Below, one piece after another: positions 1,494 through 63,280 of a stretch of DNA of 64,000 nt (within the stretch, counting starts at the first letter, position 1; each line of letters starts with the position of its first letter). Made by a program: the position numbers and the translations under genes. The stretch is taken from contig JAJFLP010000088.1 in the NCBI GenBank assembly GCA_021772635.1, positions 1 through 64,000 on the forward strand. Reading direction: 5' to 3'. The DNA is from Verrucomicrobiota bacterium. GTDB taxonomy: Bacteria; Verrucomicrobiota; Lentisphaeria; JABSQK01; JAJFLO01. The notes under the pieces are model-generated. The model saw nothing but the letters and a program-made list of their open reading frames with translations. It was not told where the DNA came from and did not search any database.

Positions 1494-1586
1494 CTTTACT
1501 GATCGCGTTAGAGTTTTCGAATTATCGTTCGATATCTCATGCGTGGTAGTTTGAAGTCGTCCAAAAATTGTACTGCTTGCAGTATA
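1494..1586 (+). repeat. Modular intergenic repeat R1, short form
   Basis: This is the short form of the R1 family, with no inserted modules. The left end is degenerate (TTTACTGATCGCG). The inner palindrome is ATCGTTCGATATC, followed by TTGAAGTCGTCC and the right end TGTACTGCTTGCAGTATA. Confidence 0.75.
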
Positions 1587-8556: not shown

Positions 8557-8690
8557 TATACCGCAAGCGGTACGATTTTCGGTCCGGATTACCCGAGACT
8601 CTCGCTTATGCGGAGACGACTTCAAATTGATTTCGTAAGAGACTCCGAACGGTTTTTCGTCCCGCATGCGGGATGAAGAGGTCCGGTATA
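8557..8690 (-). repeat. Modular intergenic repeat R1 with inner module
   Basis: Inverted copy of R1 between bioD and bioB. It begins TATACCGCAAGCGGTAC and ends CCGGTATA. It carries one inserted hairpin module (gtccggattacccgagactc, then cttatgcggaga) at the GTCGTC site and a second palindrome, cccgcatgcggg, near the other site. The remaining DNA to bioB (8691-8890) shows nothing further that I recognise. Confidence 0.75.
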
Positions 8691-8890
8691 ATTATGACGT
8701 GACGGCCCACAAGGACTTGTATTGAAGTGTGGGGTTAATTGCGCCGGTGTCTTTAAAAAATGCGGCTGCATGCAGTTCTGGCTTCACCCGCATATCAGGT
8801 GGAGCTAGTTGTCCCATTAGGGCCGAGGTTGGAAGTTGAGTGATGCCTGGTTCCGGACAGGTCTTAAACTATCGTTGAGGGAAAAATACT

Positions 8891-11527: not shown

Positions 11528-11620
11528 TATACCGAACGCCTTAGAGTTTTTGAAAAATCGTTCGACATCTCTTACGTATTTTGTTTGAAGTCATCCGGAA
11601 ATTTTACTGCTTGCAGTATA
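11528..11620 (+). repeat. Modular intergenic repeat R1, short form
   Basis: The left end is TATACCGAACGCCTT, the inner palindrome region is aatcgttcgacatc, and the right end is TTTACTGCTTGCAGTATA. No inserted modules. It ends 20 bp before the EF-hand gene and may contribute to its leader. Confidence 0.8.
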
Positions 11621-12395: not shown

Positions 12396-12571
12396 TATAC
12401 CGAACGCCTTCGAATTTTTTAACCGGCCATCATGTCTCGCCATAGTCCCGATCTCCCGTAGAATCGGGACGAAGGCGGAAGCCACCTGGGCGACGGCTGT
12501 TCGAAATATCGTTCGATATCCGTTAGGCAATGAATTCAAAGTCGTCCAAAAATTGTACTGCATGCAGTATA
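12396..12571 (+). repeat. Modular intergenic repeat R1 with outer module
   Basis: Begins TATACCGAACGCCTTCGAATT and ends TACTGCATGCAGTATA. It carries a long insert after the TTTTTT of the left arm, containing the inverted pair agtcccgat / atcgggac, and none at the GTCGTC site. Confidence 0.8.
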
Positions 12572-13950: not shown

Positions 13951-14114
13951 TATACTGCAAGCAGTACAATTTCGGGTCCGGATTATCCGGGCACTCTCGC
14001 TTATGCGGAGACGACTTTGAATTCATTACCTAAGGGATATCGAATAATATTTTTTAACCGGTGTTCTGCCGGCCAGCAGAACGCCGAGTCGAAAACATGA
14101 AGACGTTCGGTATA
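13951..14114 (-). repeat. Modular intergenic repeat R1 with both modules
   Basis: Inverted copy beginning TATACTGCAAGCAGTAC and ending TTCGGTATA. It contains the inner module (gtccggattatccggg, then cttatgcggaga) at the GTCGTC site and the outer module with the hairpin gttctgccggccagcagaac. Confidence 0.8.
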
Positions 14115-14954: not shown

Positions 14955-15063
14955 TATACTGATCGTCTTCGAGTTTTTGACCAGGCGTTCTGCTGGCCAG
15001 CAGAATCCCGGTTAAAAAATTTCGTTCGGAATCTTCTGGGTGGTTATACTGCTTGCAGTTTAT
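14955..15063 (+). repeat. Modular intergenic repeat R1 with outer module
   Basis: Begins TATACTGATCGTCTTCGAG and carries the hairpin gttctgctggccagcagaat. The middle is shortened and the right end reads TATACTGCTTGCAGTTTAT. Confidence 0.75.
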
Positions 15064-17150: not shown

Positions 17151-17350
17151 TATACCGAACGTCTTCGAGTTTTCGACCAAGCGTTGTCCGTGTAACTTCC
17201 GCCGTTGCCTAGGTCGGCTAGTGCCTCCGCTGAAGCTATGGCGCTCTCGCGAAAGCGGATGACGCGACATGATGCCGGTTAAAAAATATCGTTCGATATC
17301 TCATGCGTGGTAACTTGAAGTCGTCCAAAAATTGTACTGCTTGCGGTATA
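17151..17350 (+). repeat. Modular intergenic repeat R1 with long outer module
   Basis: Begins TATACCGAACGTCTTCGAG and ends GTACTGCTTGCGGTATA. The outer insert is about 120 bp, ending gacatgatgccggttaaaaa, and there is no module at the GTCGTC site. Confidence 0.8.
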
Positions 17351-22705: not shown

Positions 22706-22913
22706 TAGCGAGGTTTCGAAAAATCATTCGGAGTCTCTTACTCAATCACCTTGAAGTCGTCTCTCTCCGCACGAGCGGAGTCTCGGTAGTCCGGACCGCA
22801 CTCTCGGAGTTCGCTCGTGCGGACCGCATAAGTGTCCCGTATTGACGGGAACCACGCTCGTGCGGGAAGAGTCTCGGATAATCCGGACCAAAAATTGTAC
22901 CGCTTGCGGTATA
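22706..22913 (+). repeat. Modular intergenic repeat R1 with long inner module
   Basis: The left end is degenerate (gaggtttcgaaaaatc). The module array at the GTCGTC site is over 100 bp: repeated ccgcacgagcgg / cggagtctcgg / ccggacc hairpins. The right end is TTGTACCGCTTGCGGTATA. Confidence 0.7.
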
Positions 22914-23011: not shown

Positions 23012-23169
23012 TATACTGATCGCCTTCGAGTTTTCGACCAGGCGTCGTCTGTATGGCTATGTCGGTTAAAAATTATCGACCGACATCCTATACGCGGTGA
23101 CTTGCAAGTCGTCTCCGCATGAGCGGAGTCTCGGTCATCCGGACCGAAAATTGTGTCGCTTGCGGTATA
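23012..23169 (+). repeat. Modular intergenic repeat R1 with both modules
   Basis: Begins TATACTGATCGCCTTCGAG and has a short outer module (gaccaggcgtcgtctg). The inner module is ctccgcatgagcggagtctc, then atccggacc. The right end is GTGTCGCTTGCGGTATA. With 22706-22913 it forms a tandem pair filling the 529-bp gap. Confidence 0.75.
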
Positions 23170-25015: not shown

Positions 25016-25222
25016 TATACTGCAAGCAGTACAATTTTGGGTCCGTATGGACGGACTCCGCTCATGCGGTCCGCACGAGCGGACTCCGAGAATACGGAGA
25101 GACGACTTTGAATTCATTACCTAAGATCTATGTTGAGCCTGGCGAAATCCGCCGCGGTGGAAACAATATTTAACCGACATTCTGCTGGCCGGCAGAACGC
25201 CTGGTCGAATACGTTCGGTATA
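25016..25222 (-). repeat. Modular intergenic repeat R1 with both modules
   Basis: Inverted copy: TATACTGCAAGCAGTAC at one end, CGTTCGGTATA at the other. It contains the gtccgcacgagcgg / actccgag hairpin array and the ttctgctggccggcagaacg hairpin. It is one of the longest copies. Confidence 0.8.
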
Positions 25223-27554: not shown

Positions 27555-27655
27555 TATACCGAACCTTTTCATCCCGCATGCGGGATGAAATATTGTTCGA
27601 TATCCCTTAGGTAATCAATTCAAAGTCGTCCCAAAATTGTACTGCTTGCAGTATA
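27555..27655 (+). repeat. Modular intergenic repeat R1, short form with central palindrome
   Basis: Begins TATACCGAACCTTTTCATC, 3 bp after the preceding stop codon. It holds the palindrome cccgcatgcggg at the outer site, then gttcgatatcccttaggtaa and the right end TACTGCTTGCAGTATA. Confidence 0.8.
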
Positions 27656-34422: not shown

Positions 34423-34499
34423 GGGCGTTTAGTTCAGTTGGTTAGAACGCTACCTTCACACGGTAGAGGTCACTGGTTCGAGTCCAGTAACGCCCACCA
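34423..34499 (+). tRNA. tRNA-Val (anticodon CAC), CCA encoded
   Basis: A complete cloverleaf: acceptor GGGCGTT pairs with AACGCCC, and CCA follows the discriminator A at 34497-34499. The anticodon arm is CTACC-TTCACAC-GGTAG, giving anticodon CAC for GTG codons. The T-loop is GGTTCGAGTCC. A short hairpin (gccttcgc / gcgaaggc) follows directly. Confidence 0.95.
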
Positions 34500-35183: not shown

Positions 35184-35346
35184 TGTACACTGAAGGTCTT
35201 TATCCCGCATGCGGGATGAAATATCGTTCGATATCCCTTAGGTAATGAATTCAAAGTCGTCTCTCCGTATTCTCGGAGTCCGCTCGTGCGGACCGCATGG
35301 GCGGAGTCCGTCCGTCCGGACCAAAAATTGTACTGCTTCGCAGTAT
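35184..35346 (+). repeat. Modular intergenic repeat R1 with both modules
   Basis: The left end is degenerate (TGTACACTGAAGGTC). The palindrome cccgcatgcggg sits at the outer site. The GTCGTC site holds the array cggagtccgctcgtgcggac. The right end is TACTGCTTCGCAGTATA. It lies between the convergent Hpt and hybrid kinase genes. Confidence 0.75.
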
Positions 35347-35419
35347 AGCGGGTAATTCAGATTTCGAACGAACGAAAAGGTTGGCGGGACGAATCTGCCG
35401 GTCGAAGGTTCGCTTTGGT

Positions 35420-52954: not shown

Positions 52955-53140
52955 TATACCGAACGTCTGTAGATTCTCGAAAATCGCTCGGAGTCTCTTA
53001 CGCAATCAATTTGAAGTCATCTCTCTCCGCACGAGCGGAGTCTCAGTAATCCGGACCGCACTCTCAGAGTCCGCTCGTGCGGACCGCATACGCCAGAGTC
53101 TCGGGTAATCCGGACCGAAAATTGTACCGGCTGCGGTATA
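52955..53140 (+). repeat. Modular intergenic repeat R1 with long inner module
   Basis: Begins TATACCGAACGTCTGTAGATT and ends TTGTACCGGCTGCGGTATA. The module array at the GTCATC site has two ccgcacgagcgg-type hairpins separated by ccggacc, almost the same arrangement as 22706-22913. Confidence 0.8.
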
Positions 53141-63126: not shown

Positions 63127-63280
63127 TATACTGATTGCCTTCGAGTTTTCCGCGATCGCCTAGCCATCCGCCACATGATCTATATTAACTCCAGTCAGGT
63201 TTTCGACAAGTTTTCTAAAATCTTTGCCTACCGTGATCCCGCGCCTGCGGGATCGAAAATTCGACTGCTTGCAGTCTATA
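63127..63280 (+). repeat. Modular intergenic repeat R1, diverged
   Basis: Begins TATACTGATTGCCTTCGAG and contains the palindrome tcccgcgcctgcgggatcg. It ends ATTCGACTGCTTGCAGTCTATA. It lies immediately before the last gene and may supply its leader. Confidence 0.7.

Follow-up and report, generated by a model that had tools for sequence, protein, structure and literature searches.

IS630/Tc1-mariner-type MITEs are short, non-coding, high-copy elements that duplicate a TA target. The BOX elements of Streptococcus pneumoniae and S. suis are composite repeats lying between genes, in which the ends are fixed and the copy number of an internal module varies from 0 to n; in S. suis the scaffolds boxA/C and boxE/F share one boxB module (PMC3049150). 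The GC clusters of yeast mitochondria are short GC-rich palindromic hairpins, for which merger of palindromes and shuffling were proposed and signs of co-conversion were noted (PMC4478555). REP/BIME and GTAG- or CGTC-tagged repeats are high-copy palindromes that occur in arrays, some families being inserted inside longer palindromes (PMC3733652). The element R1, a 93-nt non-coding sequence with hundreds of copies in an uncultured bacterium of Verrucomicrobiota/Lentisphaeria type, has BOX elements and yeast GC clusters as its closest known kinds, with BOX nearest in architecture. Like BOX, R1 has fixed end modules and variable internal ones (architecture was compared, not sequence); unlike BOX, it carries modules of at least six types, nested and found in both orientations, at some five acceptor points. 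The modules differ from GC clusters in their bacterial DNA-transposon scaffold, their fixed points and the absence of the AG target of GC42. The number of acceptor points, the nesting, the inversion and the independence of modules from scaffold set R1 apart from these known kinds.

The 93-nt consensus of the R1 core (TATACCGAACGTCTTCGAGTTTTCGAAATATCGTTCGGAATCTCTTACGTGATTAGTTTAAAGTCGTCCAAAAATTGTACTGCTTGCAGTATA) was built from 1.21 Mb of the genome (~30%), in which 246 copies were found above threshold, a density biased upward because these contigs were picked for R1 matches. Large inserts were absent from the core alignment of 86 of these copies, and 218 of the 246 lay outside called ORFs; R1 is thus short, non-coding, high-copy and intergenic, as is expected of a MITE. 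The flanks of R1 insertions displayed a palindromic preference, ANN-TA-NNT, and the target-site duplication was found to be TA, with a single TA at empty sites when joined flanks were compared with uninterrupted paralogous sequence. Examples include a copy on contig C12, compared with several paralogous empty sites, and C17:28647; one R1 copy lies inside another repeat family having many empty copies, and another inside a diverged duplicate region. The TA duplication at empty sites identifies R1 as a miniature non-autonomous DNA transposon, MITE-like and TA-inserting. With genes taken as simple long ORFs, no strand bias and no bias towards co-directional, convergent or divergent gaps was found, and a terminator or promoter-like regulatory role was rejected, given the lack of positional bias relative to genes. 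Searches of viral contigs and plasmids found no R1.

R1 resembles IS630/Tc1-mariner MITEs in TA duplication, size and copy number, but its terminal inverted repeats are very short (~7 bp, TATACCG/CGGTATA, plus loose similarity, against the 10–30 bp of a MITE), and no IS630-type transposase (DDE_3, PF13358) was found in its own genome, the assembly of which is ~91% complete. R1 was therefore not filed as a member of this group, its target being TA but no cognate transposase having been found in this genome. The autonomous partner would be expected to have the ends TATACCGAACG...GCAGTATA. R1-like ends bracketed none of the DDE_3, DDE_Tnp_1 or Y1_Tnp loci of this genome and none of the DDE_3 loci of G002, a genome of the sister genus; similarly, the IS630 genes of G002 had no ends matching R1. 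The features of the window, that is, the whole stretch of 64,000 nucleotides analysed, are collected in Table 1. For one protein encoded there, the closest named relatives belong to an uncultured Lentisphaeria MAG and a Verrucomicrobia MAG, and the host is most likely a member of the PVC group.

Table 1. R1 copies, modules and one other feature in the window, with positions counted from its first nucleotide.
Feature	Position	Strand	Description
R1, short form	1495..1586	+	module-free scaffold, by alignment
R1	8557..8692	-	CCCGCATGCGGG palindrome 8659-8674 at core 16; H module 8581-8614 at core 67; left end set by visual inspection
R1	11528..11620	+	module-free scaffold, by alignment
R1	12396..12571	+	insert of 83 bp at core 23, reading as the long core-25 module in reverse complement (inverted in place)
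R1	13951..14114	-	TTCTGCCGGCCAGCAGAA module 14064-14081 at core 26; H module 13975-14009 at core 67
R1-like	14955..15062	+	TTCTGCTGGCCAGCAGAA module 14988-15005 at core 26
R1	17151..17350	+	108-bp nested module ending GATGCCGGTTAAA at core 25; core 67 empty
R1 (copy first singled out)	22706..22913	+	left end decayed; nested hairpin array at core 67; right end and terminal hairpin intact
H array of the 22706 copy	22762..22888	+	nested hairpin module, 127 bp, exactly between AAGTCGTC (ends 22761) and CAAAAATTGTAC (starts 22889)
R1	23012..23169	+	34-bp module at core 26; 31-bp H module at core 67
R1, three modules	25016..25222	-	GGCGTTCTGCCGGCCAGCAGAATG near core 25; M42 at core 42; 60-bp H array at core 67
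M42 of the 25016 copy	25127..25159	-	at the core 42 set point
R1	27555..27655	+	ATCCCGCATGCGGGAT palindrome 27571-27586; core 67 empty
tRNA gene	34423..34496		sole Rfam match in the window
R1	35186..35347	+	ATCCCGCATGCGGGAT 35202-35217; 60-bp H array at core 67; left end diverged
R1	52955..53140	+	94-bp H array 53022-53115 at core 67
R1, divergent subfamily (AACTCCAGTCAGGTTTTCGACAAG...)	63180..63278 (outer coordinates approximate)	+	different palindrome, GATCCCGCGCCTGCGGGATC, 63235-63254 at the core-67 equivalent

For the 22706 copy the aligner gave a start of 22554, which is spurious (left end forced), and 22706 was retained. The sequence-only reading had placed hairpin arrays exactly between the two words that flank the array of this copy, and this was confirmed for six of the seven copies that it named (8557, 13951, 22706, 23012, 25016 and 52955), the seventh (35184) being placed there by direct reading and core alignment. 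At 1495, 11528, 12396, 17151 and 27555, (A)AGTCRTC passes into C+[A/G/C]AAA[A/T]TTGTAC without an array, with GTCGTC in four of these copies and GTCATC at 11528. The same reading reported a second set of modules after the left TTTT. This set is real at 13951, 14955, 17151, 23012 and 25016, and inverted at 12396, but CCCGCATGCGGG, which had been counted in it, occupies a slightly different point, core ~16, where it usually substitutes for the loop GAGTTTTC (8557, 35184); in 27555 the aligner placed the palindrome at 24.

Across the sampled copies, 181 of the 212 large internal insertions fell at 11 of the 75 scored positions, with 31 expected if uniform (the copies are related, and a p-value is indicative only). 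Four set points were located in the R1 core, at 15-16, 23-27, 42 and 67-69, and a fifth, in copies elsewhere in the genome, lies in the right-terminal hairpin, within its loop. The two sites proposed at first are therefore fixed, as claimed, but core 42 and the right-hairpin loop had been missed. Chance is excluded by this clustering together with the strict right-end word of R1, which gave 357 matches in the 3.97-Mb genome and 0 in the reversed control.

The modules are palindromes, often palindromes within palindromes. The core-16 module is ATCCCGCATGCGG, whereas those at core 25 comprise the TTCTGCTGGCCAGCAGAA type and two longer relatives. The core-42 module, M42, is GC-rich and 33-36 bp long, with 97 copies genome-wide, 44 of them identical over 31 nt. 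The core-67 modules form the nested H family, with ends TCTCCG...CGGAC and 91 copies in this genome, and the loop of the right hairpin can hold module Q (37 bp), some copies of which are empty while others contain an H array. H was also found inverted at point 25 and inverted inside Q. More generally, modules were found at different R1 points, in both orientations, and outside R1, notably in the GAACTC...GAGTTC repeat family. The idea that hairpin modules are acquired and lost by a scaffold at set points was supported, since boundaries stayed fixed over 246 aligned copies instead of scattering, near-identical scaffolds differed in their modules, and modules occurred apart from R1. Separately, a second composite repeat family, with the stem GTGAACTCCAACG...CGTTGGAGTTCAC and often flanked by GAAACTT and AAGTTTC, seems just as modular and has palindromic modules in common with R1 (L106, L107, C107:62455 and C4 near 21992). 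Additionally, the H array of an R1 copy at L043:13994-14367 is split by another element with the ends ATGTCACTAAGTT/AACTTAGTGACAT.

Identical boundaries would be explained simply if each set point derived from one ancestral insertion in one R1 lineage, followed by transposition and decay with no exchange. On the core tree (poorly resolved, 93 nt), M42 and H labels were slightly better clustered than shuffled ones and presence at core 25 was somewhat clustered, in line with this explanation; M42 needed 11 changes for 16 carriers, against 15.7 when shuffled, and a single M42 clade was not rejected by the AU test (p = 0.157). Nevertheless, M25a and M25b/c labels were clustered no better than shuffled, and the module identity of M42 and M25b (~0.92) was far above core identity (0.73-0.80), with a module-core correlation of ~0. 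For M25a the values were 84% for the module and 76% for the core. H at core 67 presented a module identity (0.72-0.78) not above that of the core (0.73-0.78), and the correlation between left and right core halves of R1 was r = 0.32. In one subfamily with cores 92-98% identical, the copies carried no module, M25a, H, M25b+H or M25a+M42+H. Inserts are probably swapped between R1 copies faster than R1 itself changes. The excess identity of M42 and M25b, the differing modules of near-identical cores and a linkage between core columns that weakens as they lie further apart (from an r2 of 0.093 to one of 0.014; p < 0.001 by permutation) make single insertion without exchange very unlikely.

The extra identity among M42 carriers was found to peak at the module and to fall to ~0 at both element ends. 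Similarly, chimeric elements were found to join inside H (C17:63528, C17:37620 and C4:8486), the first being a mini-element TATACTGCCCGCGATC-H-GAAAACCTGAAGACGTTCGGTATA and the second an S67-H-H(inverted)-S25 junction. The decay of identity from the module, the decay of linkage and the chimeras point to recombination between copies. R1 is thus probably a TA-inserting non-autonomous transposon with a handful of acceptor points for interchangeable palindromic modules, which are spread by short-tract recombination. Once present, a module would pass from one R1 copy to another, and to other palindromic repeats, through short-tract gene conversion or replication template switching at palindromes, and the same process could account both for modules inverted in place and for compensatory changes in the terminal hairpin. 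Template switching between the arms of an inverted repeat homogenises the arms and inverts the spacer (PMC8604942), and co-conversion tracts and shuffling were reported for yeast GC clusters (PMC4478555). The best reading of R1 is that of a selfish composite repeat for which a host function is not required. Against spread by short-tract recombination, some module sharing tracks core kinship, as observed for M42; the near-identity of M42 could stem partly from constraint; the H modules at core 67 are no more alike than their cores; and for H to have reached core 67, core 25, Q and the GAACTC family, a non-homologous first step beyond conversion is needed.

Homology does not account for the first arrival of H in three unrelated contexts, which leaves a place for transposition of the modules themselves. 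According to this alternative, the modules are tiny mobile hairpin elements, comparable to yeast mitochondrial GC clusters or to REPs moved by a Y1/HUH transposase, that transpose into palindrome centres, R1 being merely a good target. The ends of H are consistent across three unrelated acceptor points, all of which also exist in an empty form, and H, read in its own orientation, always follows TC, the preceding sequence varying by site (GTCGTC, TATTTC or GATCTC). The modules common to the GAACTC/GAGTTC family, the different palindrome at the core-67 equivalent of a sister-genus copy and the 11 Y1_Tnp matches in the genome also favour mobile modules. Nevertheless, the junctions of the modules showed no target duplication, M42 and the palindrome at core 16 take the place of scaffold bases instead of being cleanly inserted, and identity spills into the scaffold around modules, as conversion predicts. 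In addition, none of the ten Y1 loci examined was bracketed by module hairpins, the sequences nearby being ordinary R1 copies and other repeats. H also differs from REPs in having no constant GTAG/CGTC tag, as CGTC precedes it only at core 67 and is scaffold-derived; neither the constant tag nor the repeats flanking a Y1 gene (ten loci) that characterise REP/RAYT systems were found. We therefore regard autonomous movement of the modules as unlikely. It can be suggested, tentatively, that the modules are to bacteria what GC clusters are to yeast mitochondria: palindromes that spread by themselves, form a pool across the genome and might use several unrelated miniature transposons, and each other, as vehicles via defined acceptor points. 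Just upstream of one Y1 transposase gene lies a repeat (L099:1007-1381) containing CTACTGCGAGCA, which has ~50 matches in the sampled stretches; sequence similar to it constitutes the family that hosts one R1 insertion.

The modules were initially described as RNA hairpins, and R1 could be imagined as a functional RNA in which hairpin domains grow and shrink at loops. Folding is indeed strong (RNA z = -4.3 for the 22706 copy, DNA z = -5.3 for the 25016 copy), and pairing in the right-terminal hairpin reaches 96%, compensatory changes being present there. However, strong folds are expected of any palindrome, and compensatory changes can arise from template switching at palindromes (PMC8794818). 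RNAalifold gave no consensus core fold, mutual information picked out only the terminal hairpin, and the left stem CCGAACG/CGTTCGG displayed no covariation. Moreover, the modules lie in both orientations, R1 has no bias in position or strand relative to genes, and a search of the window against Rfam gave no match to R1, only the tRNA gene being matched. The RNA part of the initial description was accordingly abandoned, an RNA function being very improbable; a structured ncRNA class for R1 was rejected on the grounds that covariation is limited to the terminal hairpin. The modules behave as DNA palindromes, and shuffling at the DNA level is favoured over RNA function by the decay of identity and linkage, the chimeras, the restriction of covariation to the terminal hairpin and the absence of gene-orientation bias. 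As a caution, strong folds and covariation in repeats do not by themselves prove RNA function. The hundreds of R1 copies in one genome constitute a natural record of palindrome gain, nesting, inversion and swapping. With such a record, comparison of strains could tell whether modular bacterial repeats of the BOX sort expand through transposition of their modules or through template-switch recombination, and whether selection is required at all for compensatory changes in hairpins.

G002 was found to hold at least 212 right ends of R1, and the copies read there were nearly uniform 93-nt elements. The two module families searched, H and M42, were absent from G002 and from four other relatives. 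The presence of the scaffold in G002 without H and M42 means that the scaffold seems older than these two modules. One G002 copy carried a palindrome of its own, ATCCCGCCTGCTAGGCGGGAT, at the core-67 equivalent, so this point was used at least two times by different palindromes. The near-identity of the 93-nt copies of G002 (L136, L137, L139, L141, L143, L144 and other loci) suggests a recent burst of the element in that genome.
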